Below the pieces are notes generated by a model. That model saw only the letters and a program-made list of their open reading frames with translations. It was not told the DNA's origin and ran no database searches. From an uncultured Verrucomicrobiota bacterium (GTDB lineage Bacteria > Verrucomicrobiota > Verrucomicrobiia > Opitutales > Opitutaceae), in NCBI GenBank assembly GCA_913058185.1, contig CAJXQX010000023.1, positions 1-49,862 of the forward strand: DNA of 49,862 nt. The letters are read 5' to 3'. Position 1 is the stretch's first letter. Each line of letters begins with the position of its first letter. The translations under genes and the position numbers were made by a program. Below, piece after piece: positions 2,689 through 11,003 of this stretch.

Positions 2689-2892
2689 AGGAGAGGATTT
2701 TGGGAGGGCGAGCGAATTACTTGCCACTAAGGCATCGCACCATGTCTGGGAGCACCCGCAATCCTCCATTGAGTCCATTGTTAGGACTCGTTAGGCGCCG
2801 GAGGGGTTCTGAGGTGCTGTTTGCCCCTAAGAAACGTGAAAGTGGACCCGTCGCCGCGTCCTGATGATTCTCCGGAGTTTAAGGTCGCGAAG

Positions 2893-3486
2893 ATGATCGG
2901 TGACACGTTTGGATTCTCGCCCGTGTTTAGGCTTACATTAATTTTTCTTGGATGGACCGTGGTGACCTTGGCGGCGGTGGAGGTAGAAGATCGGGGCTTT
3001 GTGGTCTACCGGGACAATTGTATGGATTGTCATTTGAGCAGGGGGATGGGGATTCGGGAGATGAATGCACCATCGATTGCAGGATTGCCGCGGTGGTATG
3101 TGACAGATCAGTTGCGTGAGTTTCGGCGCGGGCAGCGCGGTGAGCACGATGATGATGCGGCAGGTCAGCTCATGCAGATTAAGGCGAAGAGTTTGGGCGA
3201 ACGAGACCTCGCGTTTGTCGGCCGGTTTATTGAGTCGATGGCGCCGAACCCTGAACGCGTGACGCTCGATGCGGAAATTACTCCTCGTGCTGAAGAGCAC
3301 TACCTGAGCGATTGTGCGGCGTGCCACGGGGATCGCGGAGAAGGAGGACGCCGCGAGCGGGCGCCACCTCTCACGCGTCAGCCGGATTGGTATCTGCTGA
3401 AGCAGATGGAGAATTTTCGCACGGGGCGACGTTCGCACGGGGCGACGTTCGCATGGGAACGCACCGAGTCTGGAGGAGTTAGCTGA
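2893..3486 (+). CDS. Dihaem cytochrome c (c4-like), C-terminus frameshifted
   Basis: The protein has a hydrophobic signal or anchor segment (FRLTLIFLGWTVVTLAAVEV) and two haem c sites, CMDCH and CAACH, each followed by the helices seen in c4/class I cytochromes, so it is a periplasmic electron carrier. A TTG start at 2821 is also open, but the ATG at 2893 places the signal near the N-terminus. A perfect 16-bp tandem duplication (3421-3436 and 3437-3452) shifts the frame and ends the protein at 3484-3486. With one copy removed, the frame continues as SHGNAPSLEELAETDAK and ends at the TGA at 3536-3538, the usual family ending. This is either a recent mutation or an assembly error. A 10-bp direct repeat (GCCTTAGTGG, 3521-3530 and 3539-3548) brackets the convergent gene ends. 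Confidence 0.8.
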   Translation: MIGDTFGFSPVFRLTLIFLGWTVVTLAAVEVEDRGFVVYRDNCMDCHLSRGMGIREMNAPSIAGLPRWYVTDQLREFRRGQRGEHDDDAAGQLMQIKAKSLGERDLAFVGRFIESMAPNPERVTLDAEITPRAEEHYLSDCAACHGDRGEGGRRERAPPLTRQPDWYLLKQMENFRTGRRSHGATFAWERTESGGVS

Positions 3487-3541: not shown

Positions 3542-6500
3542 TTAGTGGAAATCGTGGGAGGCTTGGGCTGAGACTTCGGAGAGGCGGAGCGCCGCGATGG
3601 TGGTCGCCTTGATATGGATGATTCCGTGTTGGATCTGAAGTTGGCCGGTGATTCGCAGGGCGGGCTCGAGGTTGATGACGAGGCGGTATGCTTCGAACTT
3701 CGGGGGAGTTACGATGCAGTTGGCGACGCCGGTTTCGTCTTCAAGGGAGATGAAAACAAAACCCTTGGCGGTGCCGGGGCGTTGACGGCAAATCACGCTG
3801 CCGGCGACCGTGACTTTGATGCCGTTTTTGGCGAGAGGTAGATCGCTGGCCCGCCAGACATCAGGTAAGGAGGAGCGCACGTGCGCCATCGGATGCATGC
3901 CGGCGGTAAGTCCCATCAACGTGAAGTCAGCCTGCACGCGTTCTCCGAGCGACATGGGTGATAGGATTTCGGATTTTGGATTGGGGGTTTCGGAATGCGA
4001 AGAAGGGGAGCTGGAGACGTGGTTTGAGGGATCGAATCTTTCTCTTTCCTCTTTATCGTTCTCTTTCTCCTCGGTGGTGCTAGGTGGATTCGCAGTCGAA
4101 CCGGGAAAGGGGTCAGGTCGGAAAAAGTGAACTTCGTCTCCCTGGGACTGCGTTTCACTTTTTAACGACGCGGCCCCCGGAGGCTGTGTTTCAATCTCTG
4201 CCGCGAGGAGCGGCTGCTCTTCAGCCTCTTGATTCTTGCTACTTGTTACTTGGTCCTTCTGCAGCGGGCTATCGGCCCGCTGCAGCAACGGTTCATCGGC
4301 GGACCAAGCGGCTTCGATTTGCCACAGCGCGGCACGGCGGTGAGTGGCGAAAGCATTGAGGGCGCCGCTGGCGGCGAGGGCGCGCCGATTGGCCGGCGAG
4401 AATGTGGTGCGAACGAGCCAATCTTCGATGTCGGAAAAAGGGCGTTCGGCGCGCGCTTCGAGCATGGCTTGGGTGTTCTTTTCGGAGAGTCCCTTTAGGT
4501 AACAAAGACCAAGTCGCACCCGGGGAATCTTTGGGGTTTCCGATTTCGGATTTCCGATTTCGGATTTTGGCGGGGTGGCTCGAGGGGTGGGTGCTTTGCG
4601 CTGATTTGTTCTTTCTCGTTCTTCTTTCTCTTTCTCTTCTGGGTTCGGCTGGTCGGGGTCGTTCGCACCGGGTAAGGGGTCAGGTCGTGAAAAGTGAACT
4701 TCGCTTCGCTGCGTTACACTTTGTCTACGACCTGACCCCGTGGGCTCGGCCACCAACAGCGGCTGCTCTTCCGTCTCTTGATACTTGTTACTTGATACTT
4801 GGCACTTCGCTGGAGGCGGCGGAGCCACCTCCAGCGTGCATAACCAGTCAGACGTTTGGACGCAGACGGGGAGGAACTTCACGCCGTGGCGGCGGGAATC
4901 CTGGACGAGGGTGGCGGGCCCATAAAAGCCCATGGGTTGGTTGTTGAGCAGGCTGGCGACAAACTCGGCTGGCCGGTGGGCTTTTAGCCAGGTGCTGGCG
5001 TAAGCGAGGAGCGCAAAACTCATCGAATGCGATTCGGGAAATCCGTAGAGCGCGAAGTTGGAGGCAGACTCAATCAACATCTCGATGATGCGGTCGGACC
5101 AACCATGCTTGCGCATGGCGGTGCGTAGATTGGTGAGGCCGCGTTCAAGGCGTTCGGTGCCGCGACTGAATCCCATGGCGCGGCGCAACTCTTCCGCTTG
5201 GGCGCCGTTGTAGTCGGCGAGCTCCATGGCGCAGGCGAGCATCTGCTCTTGGAAGAGCACGACGCCGTAAGTGCGTTCGAGAATGGGGAGTAGGCGCTCG
5301 TGGACTTCGGGATCGAGGCAGACGATGGGTTCTCCACCGTGGCGGCGGGCGATGATGGGGTGAACGAGTTGCCCCACGATAGGCCCGGGGCGCACGATCG
5401 CGACTTGCATGGCGACATCGTAGAAACAGGCAGGTTTGAAACGGCGCAGACTCGACATCTGGGCGCGGCTTTCGATCTGGAAGACTCCGATGGTATCAGC
5501 CTCTTGCATCATTTGATAGGTCTTCGGATCGTCGGCGGGAACGGTGTAGAGGGAGAGTTCCTCGCCGCGGTCGGCACAGAGTTCGAAGCAATCCTGGAGG
5601 GTCGCCATCATGCCGAGACCGAGGAGATCAACCTTCACGATTCCGAGGTCCTCGCAGTCGTCCTTGTCCCACTGGACCACTACGCGATTCGGCATGGAGG
5701 CAGGCTCGAGCGGCACGACTTGGTTGAGTCGCCCACCGCAAATCACCATGCCGCCGGAGTGTTGGCCGAGATGGCGGGGCAGGCCGTGGAGTTGTTGATG
5801 GAGTCGCGCGAGGGTAGCGGCTCGGGGGTGGGCTCGAGGCAGCCCAGATTTGGCAAGTTGCTCCTCGAGTTCGATCGTGTGAGGGAAGTCTCCACCGTGA
5901 AAGAGTCTGGAGAATCGCCCCATGATGTCGTCGGAGAGCCCGAGCACTTTACCGAGTTCGCGAGTGGCCCCACGACCACGGTAGGTGATGACGTTGGCGG
6001 TCATAGCCGCGCCGTGCGGCGAGTAGCGTCGGTAGACTTCTTGGATGACGGATTCACGGAGTCCACCGCTGGGCAGGTCCAGATCTATGTCGGGCCACGA
6101 CGGACGACCGCCGGCGCCGATGCGGCCTTCGCTGAGGAAGCGTTCGAAGAGGAGGTGGTTCTTCACGGGGTCGATGGCGGTGATGCGCAGGGCATAGCAG
6201 ACGACGCTGTTGGCTGCGGAGCCTCGGCCTTGCACGAGAATGCCATGGGAACGGGCCCACTTGCAGAGGTCGGCCACGATCAGGAAGTAGCCGCAAAACC
6301 CGAGCCGATCGATGAGGGCGAGTTCGGTGTCGATCTGGCGGCGGTAACGAGTCGTGATGCGGGGGATTAGATCGCGGATACCGGCGTAGACGAGCCGGCG
6401 CAGGTGTGACGGCATGTTATCCCAAGGCGGGACGGGGAAATCGGGAAAGGCGTAGCCGAGGTCTTGCAGGGTGAAGTCAAGACGATCGGCGAGACGGGCG

Positions 6501-7405
6501 GTGTTGGTGATGGCGTCGGGCAGGTCGGCGAACTTTTCCGCCATGAGGCGACCGGAGCGAACCTGGCGTTCGGCGTTGGGGGCGAGGAGACGCCCGGCGC
6601 CGTCGAGCGTGGTGTGATGTCGCAGACACGTGAATACATCCGCGATGGAGCGAGCGGAGCGGTCAGCGTGGGTGATGCCGCCGGTAGCGAGCAGCGGGAG
6701 TTTCTGATTGGCGGCGAGGTCGCGGAGGAAGCGCACGGTGCGTTCTTCGCCCCGGACGTGGTGACGCTGGACTTCGACGTAGAGTCGGTCGGGACCGAAG
6801 ATGCGTTGGAGGTGATCGAGGGGCGCGGCGACGGCGTCATTGCCGCCGGTCTGCCAAGCTGAGAGGAGCGGGCCTTCGGCGTCGCCCGCGAGCGCGATAA
6901 CGCCTTCGGAGTATTGAGCGACTTCGTCCCAGGTCGCGTAGCAAGGGCGTTTGCGTTCGCGGAGATCGGAGGGGGTGGGGCGAATGTCGGGCGTTCCTCC
7001 TTCGCCGAGGCTATGGCGGACAGGAACGCCCGACCCACATTGAGAGTTTGAGGTGGGTCGGGCTTTATGCCCGACAACGGTGGAGTGGAGCGGGAATCTT
7101 GGTTCCTGCTTGGCGTGTGAGATGAGTTGGCAGAGATTTTGGTAACCGGTGCGGTTGGCGGCGAGGAGGGGAAGAGCTGTGCCGTCGCGCAGGGTGATCT
7201 CGGTGCCGACGAGAGGCCGCACCCCGACATCGTTGGCGGCGTGATAGAAACGCGGAGTGCCATAAAATCCGTCGCGATCACAGACGGCCATCGCGGGCAG
7301 TTCGAGGCGCGCAGCCGCAGCCGCGAGATCGGCAGGCATAGAGGCGCCGCGCAAAAAACTGAATGCGCTATTGGCGTGGAGTTCGTGGTAGGGGGAGGAA
7401 GGCAA
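3542..7405 (-). CDS. dnaE2: Error-prone DNA polymerase III alpha subunit, ImuC/DnaE2, with in-frame repeat insertions
   Basis: This is the polymerase of the SOS mutasome, which carries out translesion synthesis with ImuA and ImuB. The N-terminus has the PHP domain opening (YHELHANSAFSFLRGAS), followed by the C-family palm (GRGSAANSVVCYAL; PDIDLDLPSG), the HIARRHGGEP/FQEQ region, the helix-hairpin-helix region (LGLCYLKGL) and a C-terminal OB fold. At 1287 residues it is about 200-250 longer than I expect for DnaE2. The excess lies in three places: about residues 109-142 (palindromic repeat), 863-960 and 1041-1150, the last two being composite repeats rich in EEKEKEERER and PKSE. These sit between CTLE and RVRLGL, and between the AALWQ region and SLGERV, both natural linkers. 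The start is TTG; the PHP motif begins six codons later and no upstream ATG exists. I see no LexA box directly upstream. Confidence 0.95.
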   Translation of the reverse strand: MPSSPYHELHANSAFSFLRGASMPADLAAAAARLELPAMAVCDRDGFYGTPRFYHAANDVGVRPLVGTEITLRDGTALPLLAANRTGYQNLCQLISHAKQEPRFPLHSTVVGHKARPTSNSQCGSGVPVRHSLGEGGTPDIRPTPSDLRERKRPCYATWDEVAQYSEGVIALAGDAEGPLLSAWQTGGNDAVAAPLDHLQRIFGPDRLYVEVQRHHVRGEERTVRFLRDLAANQKLPLLATGGITHADRSARSIADVFTCLRHHTTLDGAGRLLAPNAERQVRSGRLMAEKFADLPDAITNTARLADRLDFTLQDLGYAFPDFPVPPWDNMPSHLRRLVYAGIRDLIPRITTRYRRQIDTELALIDRLGFCGYFLIVADLCKWARSHGILVQGRGSAANSVVCYALRITAIDPVKNHLLFERFLSEGRIGAGGRPSWPDIDLDLPSGGLRESVIQEVYRRYSPHGAAMTANVITYRGRGATRELGKVLGLSDDIMGRFSRLFHGGDFPHTIELEEQLAKSGLPRAHPRAATLARLHQQLHGLPRHLGQHSGGMVICGGRLNQVVPLEPASMPNRVVVQWDKDDCEDLGIVKVDLLGLGMMATLQDCFELCADRGEELSLYTVPADDPKTYQMMQEADTIGVFQIESRAQMSSLRRFKPACFYDVAMQVAIVRPGPIVGQLVHPIIARRHGGEPIVCLDPEVHERLLPILERTYGVVLFQEQMLACAMELADYNGAQAEELRRAMGFSRGTERLERGLTNLRTAMRKHGWSDRIIEMLIESASNFALYGFPESHSMSFALLAYASTWLKAHRPAEFVASLLNNQPMGFYGPATLVQDSRRHGVKFLPVCVQTSDWLCTLEVAPPPPAKCQVSSNKYQETEEQPLLVAEPTGSGRRQSVTQRSEVHFSRPDPLPGANDPDQPNPEEKEKEERERTNQRKAPTPRATPPKSEIGNPKSETPKIPRVRLGLCYLKGLSEKNTQAMLEARAERPFSDIEDWLVRTTFSPANRRALAASGALNAFATHRRAALWQIEAAWSADEPLLQRADSPLQKDQVTSSKNQEAEEQPLLAAEIETQPPGAASLKSETQSQGDEVHFFRPDPFPGSTANPPSTTEEKENDKEERERFDPSNHVSSSPSSHSETPNPKSEILSPMSLGERVQADFTLMGLTAGMHPMAHVRSSLPDVWRASDLPLAKNGIKVTVAGSVICRQRPGTAKGFVFISLEDETGVANCIVTPPKFEAYRLVINLEPALRITGQLQIQHGIIHIKATTIAALRLSEVSAQASHDFH
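3956..4285 (-). repeat. Composite repeat insertion in dnaE2, C-terminal linker
   Basis: In dnaE2 sense the modules are: a perfect 11-bp hairpin (arms 4259-4269 and 4275-4285); a CAAGTAN heptamer array (4211-4253); a palindrome starting GGGGTCAGGTCG (4109-4177, one arm partly decayed); a GAGAAAGAGAACG-type purine tract (4036-4073); and a GAAATCC/AAAATCC tract (about 3962-3982). The whole stretch is open in the dnaE2 frame and encodes about 110 low-complexity residues, including EEQPLLAAE, EVHFFRPDPFPG, EEKENDKEERER and NPKSE. It separates the AALWQIEAAW helix from SLGERVQADFTL, which adjoin more closely in other DnaE2 proteins. Confidence 0.85.
4525..4836 (-). repeat. Composite repeat insertion in dnaE2, before the HhH region
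   Basis: The module order matches the insertion at 3956-4285. A 9-bp hairpin (4808-4816 and 4828-4836) leads to a heptamer array (4759-4804, AAGTATCAAGTAACAAG), the same EEQPLLVAE-coding stretch, and a well-preserved palindrome at 4676-4739 whose ends GGGGTCAGGTCGT and ACGACCTGACCCC pair. A purine tract (4606-4641) and repeated GAAATC units (4536-4570) follow. It encodes about 98 residues between CTLE and RVRLGLCYLKGL. The outer hairpin arm is itself the host codons for the CTLE region. Confidence 0.87.
6986..7075 (-). repeat. Double palindrome inside the dnaE2 N-terminal region
   Basis: A perfect 13-bp inverted repeat (GTCGGGCGTTCCT at 6986-6998, AGGAACGCCCGAC at 7022-7034) encloses a CCTTCGCC...GGCGGA unit like those at 9.6 and 9.7 kb. 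It is followed at 7057-7063/7069-7075 by a second palindrome, GTCGGGC...GCCCGAC. Together they add roughly 34 codons to dnaE2 without breaking its frame, between the PHP-associated segment ending LISHAKQEPRF and the segment beginning RKRPCYATWDEVAQ. Confidence 0.75.
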
Positions 7406-7434
7406 AGGAGGATAGGTGAGCTTGAAAATCGGCC

Positions 7435-7626
7435 CTCTTACTCGTTCTCGTTCTCATTCTCGAGACAGCGGAGTGGTCCACTTTCTTTAGTCTTTTCTCT
7501 TTATCTTTATGTTTCGTCAGGAGGGGCCTGAGAGGCAGATGAACGAGAACGAGTAAGAGGGGGGATGAGGGAGTGGGCGGCGGGCAGATTGGGGATAAAG
7601 AGAAAGATAAAGAGGAAAGAGAAAGA
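7435..7626. repeat. Two interleaved hexamer inverted repeats between imuB and dnaE2
   Basis: The 348-bp gap between imuB and dnaE2 (7406-7753) is mostly repeats. Pyrimidine arms lie at 7435-7463 (CTTACTCGTTCTCGTTCTC) and 7482-7515 (TCTTTAGTCTTTTC...TTATC). Their purine partners follow in the same order at 7541-7559 (GAACGAGAACGAGTAAGAG) and 7593-7626 (GATAAAGAGAAAGATAAAG). The arms therefore alternate a-b-a'-b', so the two stems cannot both form fully without a pseudoknot. The same arrangement recurs at 9447-9735. No gene or promoter was recognised here. Confidence 0.75.
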
Positions 7627-7659
7627 TGGGCTTAAGCGCGGTGAACTTGGGTCTGAAAT

Positions 7660-7749
7660 TCTTGATACTTGATACTTGATACTTGTTACTTGGGACTTCG
7701 CGGAGCGCGTGCTACTTGATACTTCGCAGGGACGCATCGCGCGTCCCTG
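7660..7749 (-). repeat. Heptamer array and hairpin after the imuB stop
   Basis: In imuB sense, just past the stop codon, there is a perfect 9-bp stem (CAGGGACGC 7727-7735, GCGTCCCTG 7741-7749), one partial heptamer unit (7711-7725), a small CGCG...CGCG hairpin, and then a run of CAAGTAT/CAAGTAA units (7660-7695). This is the same hairpin-plus-heptamer pair found inside dnaE2 and after lexA. The stem could act as a terminator or 3' stabiliser of imuB mRNA, but no U-tract follows it. Confidence 0.75.
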
Positions 7750-7753
7750 CGCG

Positions 7754-9424
7754 CTAGTCATATTCACCATCTAGATGCCATCCGGTGGGAGTTTCGGTGA
7801 GGCGGTAGAGACCGTGGTGAGGTGGCCCGAGCGCGATGTCCCATTCTTCGCGCGACCAAGTTTGATCGGATTGCCACCAGTCGCCGCTCGCTCGCCAGGG
7901 GCCGTGATAATCCTGAACTTCACCACTGAGGTGATCGCTCCACACATAGGCTGGGGCGTGGGAGTCGGTTCCTAATTCAACTCGGGCGGGACGGGGCGGT
8001 CGGAAGCGACGGAGAGGGACTCCTAGCGCGGGCAGGGTAGCGATGGCAGCGGAAGGAATGGCTTCGCCAGTAGCGGGCGCGCGGAGGCTGGCGGAGTCGG
8101 GGCGATGGGTGTCGGCGAGTTGAGGGGTGCCGACTTGGTCGGAACCGAGGAGGGCCGCTGCGCGGGCAAGGGTTTCGGAAAAACCGTGCGGATCGCGGAG
8201 TCCGGCGTCGAACAGACCTTGTTGCCGATGGAGGGGACGGGTGGGGAATAACTCTAAGCGCACGGCAACGATAGCGGCATCAGTTGATATGGTTTCGAGG
8301 TGAGATTGGAGCGTGCGGAAGAGCAGGTCAGGGGATGCAGTAGGTGCGGGCAGACGAATCGAGCGTTGGTGCGATTTGTCGTCATCGAGCCGTAGGCAAA
8401 GGTCAATTTCGGCGGCAGCGAGTGCGACGCCTTGAAGGTCGAGGCAGAGGCGATCAACAAAGCGTCGCAGCAGGAACATAAGGGGGTCGAGGGATTCGAT
8501 GAGATGCTCCAATTCTATTTCGGCGGCGAAACTTTGGGGTGGAGGGAGCGGTTGAATGGGACGGGTGCTTTGGCCGGCGGCGCGTTCCCAGAGAGCGAGA
8601 CCACCGGGGCCGAGGCGTTGGGCGACATCGGCTTTGGACAGAGCAGTGAGTTGGCCGAGCGTGGTGATGCCCCAGAGTTGTAGGATGTCGATATGTTTGG
8701 GATTAGGGTCGGCGGCGCTGAGCGGGAGAGGCGCGAGGAAGGTATGCGCGTCGTCGATCGTGACGACGGAGGGGCGGATGGGGGTATTGTCAGAGAGATC
8801 GATTCTTTCTCTTTCTTCTTTATCGTTCTCTTTCTCTTCGCGGTTCTGGGCGACGGGGTCAGGTCGTGAAAAGTGAACTTCCTCCTTCGTCAAGGCTTCG
8901 GCGGACATGCCGCTTCGATCCATTACACTTTGTCTACGACCTGACCCCGCCGTCGCGGCCCGAGCACCGTAGAGGGCGAGGAGCGGGGTGGAGGCGAGTC
9001 CGGCGGTAGCAGTGAAGCCGAGGGAGGCGAGCCGGGTGAGGGCGGCTTGTAGGCGAGGTTGGCGTTGGTTGGAGGGGAGCGAGGTGACATCGGCGGTGGC
9101 GATCCCGAGATCGGTGTCTTCAACCAGAGGGGACAGGCTGGCGGAGGCGGCCAAAAGGGAAGCGCTGGCTTCGTCGTCGGCGCTGGAGTTTGGCTGTTCG
9201 AGTAAGAGGTCGCTGCAGCGGGAGAGGGCTTGTGGGGCGGTCAGACCGGGCACCACGCCAGCGGCTCGGGCGGACGGAGTGAGGGCCGTGATGACGGCCC
9301 GGCGATGATCACCGTCGAGTAGGGCAACGGGTTTGGTCGTGAGATCGGGGCGAATGCGGAGCAGTGCTTGTAGCGAGAAATCAGATACGAGGATGGTGAC
9401 GAAACAGGATGTGGGTTTAGGCAA
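7754..9424 (-). CDS. imuB: ImuB, catalytically inactive Y-family polymerase-like mutasome subunit
   Basis: ImuB is the hub of the SOS mutasome and links the ImuC/DnaE2 polymerase to the beta clamp and ImuA. The N-terminal Y-family fold is visible (FVTILVSDFSLQALLRIRP; VITALTPSARAAGVVPGLTAPQAL). The SIDE-type catalytic acidic pair of active Y polymerases is absent (the segment reads SPLVEDTDLGIATADVTSL), as is normal for ImuB. A helix-hairpin-helix stretch (LWGITTLGQLTALSKADVAQRLG) and the typical C-terminus (GPWRASGDWW...GLYRLTETPTGWHLDGEYD) follow. About 48 residues near 160-207 are an in-frame repeat insertion. The start is TTG in the same context as those of imuA and dnaE2. Confidence 0.93.
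   Translation of the reverse strand: MPKPTSCFVTILVSDFSLQALLRIRPDLTTKPVALLDGDHRRAVITALTPSARAAGVVPGLTAPQALSRCSDLLLEQPNSSADDEASASLLAASASLSPLVEDTDLGIATADVTSLPSNQRQPRLQAALTRLASLGFTATAGLASTPLLALYGARAATAGSGRRQSVMDRSGMSAEALTKEEVHFSRPDPVAQNREEKENDKEERERIDLSDNTPIRPSVVTIDDAHTFLAPLPLSAADPNPKHIDILQLWGITTLGQLTALSKADVAQRLGPGGLALWERAAGQSTRPIQPLPPPQSFAAEIELEHLIESLDPLMFLLRRFVDRLCLDLQGVALAAAEIDLCLRLDDDKSHQRSIRLPAPTASPDLLFRTLQSHLETISTDAAIVAVRLELFPTRPLHRQQGLFDAGLRDPHGFSETLARAAALLGSDQVGTPQLADTHRPDSASLRAPATGEAIPSAAIATLPALGVPLRRFRPPRPARVELGTDSHAPAYVWSDHLSGEVQDYHGPWRASGDWWQSDQTWSREEWDIALGPPHHGLYRLTETPTGWHLDGEYD
8803..8948 (-). repeat. Composite repeat insertion in imuB
   Basis: In imuB sense the palindrome GGGGTCAGGTCGT...ACGACCTGACCCC (8855-8948) comes first, then the hexamer purine tract (8803-8840). 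This is the same partial order as in dnaE2. The loop of the palindrome holds an extra GTCCGCC...CTTCG unit (about 8887-8911) of the family found at 6997, 9583 and 9675, so one repeat is nested in another. The peptide GSGRRQSV...EVHFSRPDP...EEKENDKEERER is nearly the same as in dnaE2. It lies between GARAATA and the VTIDDAHTFLAPLPL segment. Confidence 0.87.
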
Positions 9425-10818: not shown

Positions 10819-11003
10819 GAGGTCAGGTCGGAAAAAGTTTACTTCTCCCGCTGGTACGGGATACGTAGAACTCTTTGACGACACTGACCCCGTGCGACAT
10901 GGCCTCCGCTTCGAGGTGGTGGCGAAGCGGTCTGATTCTTGTTACTTGATACTTGAAATTTGTTACTTCGGGTTGCTACGGCGTTCCGCGCCGTAGCAAC
11001 CCG
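10819..11003 (-). repeat. Hairpin, heptamer array and GGTCAGG palindrome after lexA
   Basis: In lexA sense a perfect 15-bp stem (10989-11003 with 10969-10983) contains the last lexA codons and, in its second arm, the stop codon (TAG, 10976-10978). Then come CAAGTAN-type heptamers (10931-10968) and, at 10819-10891, a decayed copy of the GGGGTCAGGTCG palindrome. The order is the same as in the dnaE2 insertions. The strong stem across the lexA stop could also end transcription or slow decay of lexA mRNA. Confidence 0.8.

Follow-up and report, generated by a model that had tools for sequence, protein, structure and literature searches.

In-frame copies of a dispersed repeat composite in the error-prone polymerase genes of an uncultured Opitutaceae bacterium

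The window analysed here, 49,862 nucleotides of contig CAJXQX010000023.1 from an uncultured member of the Opitutaceae, contains the error-prone DNA polymerase gene dnaE2 and the neighbouring gene imuB, both of which hold long stretches of repetitive DNA. Where do these stretches come from, and do they belong to the polymerase genes in particular? A preliminary description of the window had proposed that one composite repeat with a fixed module order was inserted twice in dnaE2 and once in imuB, and that such repeats had colonised the error-prone polymerase genes as disordered linker peptides. In this study, the repeats were followed through the genome of the window (G000; a draft of 4.09 Mb in 159 contigs) and through related genomes. 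We assign a probability of about 0.72 to the reading that the insertions are a dispersed, mostly non-coding composite copied in frame into tolerant linkers, consisting of a heptamer element, often headed by a hairpin that appears to be host-copied, and then a palindrome related to the repeats of REP-associated tyrosine transposases (RAYT; REP, repetitive extragenic palindrome).

Insertions in DnaE2 and ImuB

The two host genes, their insertions and the modules are as follows.

3542..7405, minus strand: dnaE2, error-prone DNA polymerase of 1287 amino acids (aa), NCBIfam PRK05672 at 1048.5 bits (cut-off 939) and Pfam; hosts three insertions
3956..4285, minus strand: dnaE2 insertion 1 (aa about 1041-1150), lying between the helix-hairpin-helix domain and the OB domain; homologues have none or a short one, low predicted local distance difference test score (pLDDT)
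4259..4285, minus strand: insertion 1 hairpin CTGCAGCGGGC/GCCCGCTGCAG, left arm formed by host codons (LLQR)
4232..4258, minus strand: insertion 1 CAAGTAN heptamer array (4232-4252 by scan, first unit added by eye)
4109..4177, unstranded: insertion 1 GGGGTCAGGTCG-type palindrome, one arm degenerate (half-site scan)
4037..4069, minus strand: insertion 1 GAGAAA-type purine tract (pattern scan)
3964..3993, minus strand: insertion 1 GAAATC-type tract (pattern scan)
4525..4836, minus strand: dnaE2 insertion 2 (aa about 857-960), preceding the helix-hairpin-helix domain; homologues have none or a short one, low pLDDT
4808..4836, minus strand: insertion 2 hairpin CGCTGGAGGtGGC/GCCGCCTCCAGCG with one mismatch, left arm overlapping host codons
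4781..4807, minus strand: insertion 2 CAAGTAN heptamer array (4781-4801 by scan, first unit added by eye)
4676..4739, unstranded: insertion 2 palindrome, two exact half-sites (half-site scan)
4609..4638, minus strand: insertion 2 purine tract (pattern scan)
4534..4568, minus strand: insertion 2 GAAATC array (pattern scan)
6983..7099 (about), minus strand: smaller N-terminal dnaE2 insertion (aa about 103-141), a different hairpin repeat, GTCGGGC...GCCCGAC (alignment)
7754..9424, minus strand: imuB, Y-family-like, 556 aa, Pfam IMS and IMS_C, homologues; hosts one insertion
8803..8948, minus strand: imuB insertion (aa about 158-218), palindrome 8855-8948, then purine tract 8804-8838

Read in the coding sense, dnaE2 insertions 1 and 2 both run from the hairpin through the CAAGTAN array, the palindrome and the purine tract to the GAAATC tract, and the imuB insertion has the palindrome followed by the purine tract. 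The modules reported for the two genes were all recovered by pattern scans, far above chance: the window holds 11 matches to CAAGTAN arrays at no more than one mismatch (0.03 expected), five exact GGGGTCAGGTCG half-sites and seven at no more than one mismatch (0.46 expected), five GAAATC matches (0.40 expected) and 20 matches to the GATAAAGAGAAAGA-type purine tract at no more than two mismatches (0.14 expected). All insertions are open in the host reading frame and lie, as had been proposed, in linkers which are short in most homologues. The N-terminal dnaE2 insertion is a different hairpin repeat.

Alignments with proteins of the same genus and the same family showed three insertions in DnaE2 and one in ImuB, which bears out their earlier recognition as insertions; the nearest named DnaE2 homologues found come from uncultured Opitutaceae metagenome assemblies. 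Linker lengths were measured over 80 named DnaE2 homologues. The insertion 2 linker measures 111 aa in the window, compared with a median of 12 in the 79 homologues where it could be measured (the longest are 90 aa in L304, apparently the contig of genome G004, and 89 aa in L342), and the insertion 1 linker has 113 aa against a median of 26 and a maximum of 75 (76 measurable homologues). The N-terminal stretch is less unusual: it measures 49 aa, and the 32 measurable homologues have a median of 19 and reach 51 at most. AlphaFold pLDDT, taken in blocks of ten, ranges from 23 to 41 in insertion 2 and from 25 to 41 in insertion 1; over most of the ImuB insert it is 29-38, remaining below 50 at aa 161-215, and high confidence returns immediately beside most ends of these three large inserts. 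The predicted models, which cover the three large inserts, support their being disordered linkers; the DnaE2 structure is a fragment model which is poor overall (mean pLDDT 56), so low values there support disorder and fall short of proof.

In other Verrucomicrobia, different simple or heptamer repeats occupy the same DnaE2 linkers. The linkers of L342 (insertion 2), L306 (insertion 1) and L305 (N-terminal) show a stretch of TRTRTR/poly-T, inverted arms built of CGGAGTG units and AATCCAAAATCC-like units. A general 7-nt periodicity in the DnaE2 linkers of the 80 homologues was considered and dropped for want of a clear signal, the value for insertion-1 linkers being 0.289 against 0.272 after codon shuffling (58 linkers of at least 60 nt); striking periodicity was seen in single linkers only, such as those of L305 and L306.

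Within the genus, the DnaE2 proteins of G001 and G003 are without the module. The separately assembled G004 has dnaE2 insertions in the same linkers (insertion 1 being divided there between two contigs), and the imuB linker that is occupied in the window also contains an insertion in G005; the G005 dnaE2 contig stops before insertions 1 and 2, and contig C101 of G005, tried as the missing 3' end of that gene, proved to be a non-coding composite. The ImuB of the window is without the array and linker present in the ImuB of G005. Among four genomes searched, the linker GAAGAGCAGCCGCT occurs exactly only in both dnaE2 insertions of G000 and in the G005 imuB; it was not found in G004, despite the presence of both dnaE2 insertions there, nor in the window's own imuB insertion. 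This restricted occurrence suggests local copying from one of the neighbours, dnaE2 and imuB, to the other, and the idea that each composite copy was a separate insertion is not supported, since GAAGAGCAGCCGCT is shared. A decayed module, recognised by eye, is found in the same dnaE2 linker of G007 with the peptide EEPQLLAAEP; the module is thus probably older than the three species richest in it. The linker shared by the insertions encodes the peptide EEQPLLxAE, which in the window dnaE2 insertions presumably resembles short sliding-clamp binding motifs and is a candidate for one.

Dispersed modules, host-matched hairpins and Y1 transposases

A search of G000 for the composite found dispersed copies throughout the genome. 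A total of 40 exact GGGGTCAGGTCG half-sites and 36 double heptamers CAAGTANCAAGTA were present, against one and none in the reversed control, and the tandem 7-nt units are dispersed between genes in the manner of intergenic heptamer arrays of the TAACTGA or short tandemly repeated repetitive type. Using the DNA of insertion 2 as query (E at most 1), matches were obtained in eight of eight genus genomes, 64 in G000, 58 in G005, 48 in G004 and 1-21 in the others. The palindrome is abundant in three of 141 genomes (44 copies in G005, 40 in G000 and 22 in G004; no more than seven in any other). GAAGTNNCAAGTNNCAAGT is present in 27 of 120 family genomes, led by G065 (32 copies), G000 (27) and G095 (12), for which the reversed control gave none (up to four in other family genomes), and in 17 of 387 genomes drawn from the phylum, G000 included. 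The composite is thus not specific to SOS polymerases; the earlier picture of repeats colonising polymerase genes holds for their dispersal, their expansion and the low pLDDT, and fails for specificity to these genes.

To map the modules, 57 stretches of G000 were selected by their matches to these repeats; they contain 57 heptamer arrays, 40 palindromes, 23 purine tracts and four GAAATC arrays. The heptamer array comes first in 19 of 21 heptamer-palindrome pairs within 80 nt, and in 17 of 19 outside dnaE2 and imuB, after two palindrome calls (C3:87424 and window 26884) were dropped as spurious. A fixed order of all four modules was rejected, as purine tracts stand on either side and strand of the heptamers and palindromes; the four GAAATC arrays are too few for their order to be judged. 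The heptamer-palindrome composite is therefore a genome-wide unit and the longer dnaE2 order is common to local copies, so that the fixed module order proposed before stands for both dnaE2 copies and in part for imuB, and elsewhere only for heptamer then palindrome. In L220 of G005, around 1500-1700, a non-coding composite has a 3' tail CCCCTTAACCGGTTCG past the palindrome which resembles that of the dnaE2 copies, and the unit may therefore extend beyond the palindrome.

The window is repeat-dense between 3.9 and 11 kb, with five of the 40 palindrome half-sites and seven of the 36 double heptamers; contigs C60, C80 and C141 also have several repeats, and a hot-spot at the polymerase locus is therefore not claimed. 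Two intergenic features belong here.

7658..7725, minus strand: imuB-dnaE2 intergenic stretch with two heptamer arrays, of which one has an 11-bp hairpin
10819..10955, unstranded: lexA-imuA intergenic composite, non-coding, heptamer followed by palindrome

In its own sense the array reads GAAGTNN(CAAGTNN)n. A hairpin with site-specific arms often precedes it; the left arm is host sequence and the right arm is an inverse copy of the left that ends exactly at GAAGT. In a loose test, strong stems accompanied 22 of 57 arrays, compared with 1.05% of 1140 random places. In a strict test, in which the right arm must end exactly at the G of GAAGT with a perfect stem of at least 7 bp, stems headed 21 of 47 anchors in G000, 5 of 20 in G005, 4 of 14 in G004 and 8 of 27 in G065 (genus g59), against 0.4-0.8% in shuffled flanks (0.4% for G000). 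At unshuffled control GAAG sites, 7-bp stems were found in 0.4% of 812 in G000, 0.9% of 111 in G005 and 1.9% of 108 in G004; the G005 and G004 sets held loci picked as orthologues of hairpin sites, and the strict test was repeated without them. In genus g59 (G065; L240, L242, L243, L255 and L256), heptamer arrays stand opposed in five pairs, with 61-131 nt between the partners, and so form large palindromes.

Comparison of orthologous sites carries the argument further. At array-free orthologous sites the longest stem with a loop of 3-12 nt was 3-6 bp in 14 of 14 cases from six loci, against 7-22 bp at the eight occupied G000 sites in the same test, C25 excepted. The stem at C106:8894, with 22 bp the longest, sits where an open reading frame ends, and in G007 the same gene end is found with neither right arm nor array; at C69, three array-free relatives keep the coding left arm (with differences) and have no right arm. 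Where two species both carry the element (12 comparisons at nine sites), left-arm differences are mirrored on the right in 22 of 24; in fixed register, 95 arm pairs are the same, 22 are changed on both sides and two are broken. One mirrored change lies in the sucB coding sequence and one, seen by eye, in dnaE2 insertion 1. This count leaves out dnaE2 insertion 2 versus G004 (stem not abutting the array), C42/metH, and C1:18684 versus G005 (degenerate array, no stem). At C66, two changed left-arm bases fall, by eye, at synonymous positions of the gene's last codons. A gene end matching C66 also occurs in L068 (G004 C52, about 600-890) just upstream of dnaE2, unlike the neighbourhood in the window. 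The right arm is thus the inverse of the flank and is missing in unaffected relatives, as template switching would leave it.

With open reading frames standing in for genes, 39 intergenic anchors had a readable upstream neighbour, which in 29 of them points at the array (two-sided binomial 0.003), the median distance from the upstream stop codon being 20 nt. Survival of the reading frame is a weak explanation of orientation: heptamer arrays are open in 1.66 versus 1.70 of three frames in the two directions (44 arrays), palindromes are open in 1.15 of six frames on average with no open frame in 11 of 40, and antisense arrays occur inside genes too. Intragenic arrays were found in dnaE2, dnaE1, sucB and, antisense, metH and an AMP-binding ligase gene; the preliminary description had overlooked those outside dnaE2, together with the match of the hairpin to the host flank. 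In dnaE1 (L179:1226-4873; G000 C6:56725-60372) the array lies, like dnaE2 insertion 1, in the linker before the C-terminal region, which has GFYVSGHPM; G002 and G003 have a peptide resembling translated GAAATC in its place, and other species show different repeat-like peptides at this dnaE1 site. A 421-aa frame at C35 was set aside as a further in-frame host, its only Pfam match reaching 27.1 bits (cut-off 27.9).

Turning to the palindrome, G000 has six Y1 transposase genes, and three of these are flanked by inverted repeats starting GGGGTCAG or GGGGGTCAG, in one case with GGGGTCAGGTCG itself. The repeat at L033 is GGGGTCAGGTCGTGTTT..., of which only the outer 13 nt or so are common with the dnaE2 palindrome variant, and L031 and L032 have related ends; no such bounding repeats were found at the Y1 transposase genes L034-L036. 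L033 and L031 were scanned with the NCBIfam model of the REP-associated tyrosine transposase (NF047646) and scored 73.6 and 69.4 bits, both below the cut-off of 80. The GGGGWSAS motif fits the palindrome arm, GGGGTCAG being in all copies by choice of the search pattern. No unpaired GTAG or CGTC tag was seen at the palindrome ends in the copies inspected by eye, and the arms reach the outer GGGG. In its motif, the GGGGTCAG-type palindrome agrees with the repeats known for RAYT-like transposases.

In the surroundings of the insertions, lexA, imuA, imuB and dnaE2 all lie on the minus strand; the ImuA match, at 42.3 bits, is below its curated cut-off of 150 bits. The cytochrome-like gene at 2821-3486 contains a 16-bp tandem duplication of 2.6 copies (window 3416-3457) which seems to shift its frame, and by eye its likely C-terminus LEELAETDAKAIVAWIVALVAD continues in another frame.

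Proposed formation of the composite and competing explanations

In the preferred account, the insertions would be copies of a dispersed composite which came to lie, in frame, in surface linkers able to tolerate them, and which are translated as disordered peptide, presumably with no specific function beyond being tolerated. Its first part would be the heptamer array, about 20 nt after the stop codon, in the sense of the gene and often hairpin-headed, and its second the GGGGTCAG-type palindrome, which a Y1 transposase may mobilise in trans. The right arm of the hairpin would arise by template switching (snap-back synthesis) at the array edge, the simplest account of an arm which is an inverse copy of the flank, is missing at array-free sites and tracks the left arm. 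As some orthologous sites have quite different stems (C53, C10:45704), the copy may be made at insertion or the arm may be repeatedly corrected later. The dnaE2 and imuB copies would then have spread by recombination between these neighbouring genes. We hold more tentatively, at somewhat less than even odds, that GAAGTNN(CAAGTNN)n is an undescribed dispersed bacterial element which copies adjacent host DNA, often a gene's last codons, into an inverted arm when formed or replicated, in at least two Opitutaceae genera. Such copying would leave a perfect hairpin, specific to each site, on the 5' edge of the element, both where genes end and within reading frames.

Several observations weigh against this account. 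Among 12 anchors taken from assorted other family genomes (L223-L233), none was headed by a strict stem, and in G000 itself 26 of the 47 anchors have no stem that reaches 7 bp; the element thus does not require a hairpin. In G065 the contrast loses strength, as 4.2% of 48 control GAAG sites have 7-bp stems there. Occupied site C25, with a loop of 27 nt, scored only 5. Most orthologous sites were initially chosen for strong G000 hairpins, and eight of the 22 mirrored differences come from C10:45704, whose stems are maybe of separate origin (14 of 16 without it). The heptamer-palindrome order is broken in two of 21 pairs (C80, C103), no G000 transposase is bounded by the exact dnaE2 palindrome variant, and the insertions are known here by comparison of sequences.

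The main rival, which we regard as unlikely, is that the hairpins are transcription terminators or stabilisers of mRNA 3' ends under selection, with the arrays merely behind them and the paired differences being compensatory mutations. The position of 29 of 39 arrays just past a stop codon in the sense of the gene agrees with it, as do the REPs reported near the 3' ends of genes (PMC3733652) and the 6-bp hairpin directly after the stop codon in array-free G001 at C10:2773. Selection for a terminator sits poorly with stems of at most 6 bp at all 14 array-free orthologous sites, and paired stems also occur within reading frames (dnaE2, sucB and the AMP-binding ligase gene), where a terminator would be harmful; these too change on both sides, in one pair each in dnaE2 and sucB and two in the ligase gene, where a further pair is broken. 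The 17-bp and 22-bp stems extend into the last codons of open reading frames, and no U-run was seen by eye after the stems in the copies inspected.

Less probable again is that the composite in dnaE2 and imuB is a selected functional module, with EEQPLLxAE as a linker binding motif or with a role in tuning SOS mutagenesis. The linker is common to insertions in two partner genes, a similar peptide is retained in G007, and many intragenic REPs have been reported in replication and repair genes (PMC3733652); on the other side stand the DnaE2 of G001 and G003 and the window ImuB, which do without the module or its array and linker, and the similar arrays in sucB, metH and the ligase gene. That repeats were misjoined into dnaE2 and imuB during assembly is very improbable, for although the assembly is a draft of many contigs, three of them (C9, C27 and C141) ending beside the palindrome in adapter-like sequence, G004 dnaE2 and G005 imuB have insertions in the same linkers and the window copies are in frame with both flanks aligning to homologues. 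At these three contig ends the palindrome runs into the adapter-like CTGTCTCTTATACACATCT. Adapter-like sequence also remains at the window start, where the first open reading frame (from base 19) begins MGSEMCIRDR, which we take to be a translation of the Nextera adapter.

If the preferred account is true, a repeat edge carrying fresh inverse copies of its neighbours would be a readable genome-wide record of template switching in bacteria, and perfect hairpins at gene ends would be explained without selection for RNA structure. The linkers of mutagenic polymerases would collect repeat-coded peptide, so that annotations and structural models need care.

Comparison with known repeat systems

The preliminary description knew of no such element, which holds in part. 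Di Nocera and co-workers (2013; PMC3733652) described TIRYT, transposase genes with terminal inverted repeats (TIRs) of the motif GGGGWSAS, and dispersed families of such repeats; palindromes were reported there inside replication and repair genes, DnaE2 included, with O. terrae having the most intragenic GTAG elements. The general kind seen here, intragenic palindromes in DnaE2, is therefore already in print, and this palindrome family with its composite is a variant. The part which looks new is the heptamer element with its host-copied hairpin; no description of the element was recognised in the open-licence literature, including a search by sequence words, which is weak evidence of novelty. 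In the parts of PMC3733652 considered here, the mobilisation and de-novo formation of such repeats are left to future work.

With the TIRYT and RAYT-like TIR families, the palindrome shares GGGGWSAS repeats beside Y1 transposase genes and dispersed non-autonomous copies; it differs in following the heptamer element in a fixed order, and the exact inner sequence of the dnaE2 copies is on no G000 transposase. The intragenic GTAG/CGTC REPs (PMC3733652) are likewise palindromes inside replication and repair frames, DnaE2 among the hosts, whereas no unpaired tag was seen here and the insertions combine several repeat families. Rickettsia palindromic elements, likened here by description only, are palindromes lying in frame in unrelated genes (review PMC10969869), and sequence alignment with homologues shows in-frame insertion of this kind for dnaE2 and imuB; the portion of that review considered does not mention a heptamer part. 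The TAACTGA heptamers of Beggiatoaceae and cyanobacteria are also dispersed intergenic 7-nt arrays, which stand particularly upstream of start codons (PMC4679880, in the part considered), whereas the arrays here follow stop codons, often at a host-matched hairpin. Finally, template switching is documented in RNA genes (PMC8794818) as well as in the coding sequence of yeast (PMC8604942); there, a single event inversely copies a nearby sequence and the resulting stems can stay paired. In the described cases such hairpins are untied to any one repeat family, whereas here they recur at the fixed edge of a dispersed repeat.

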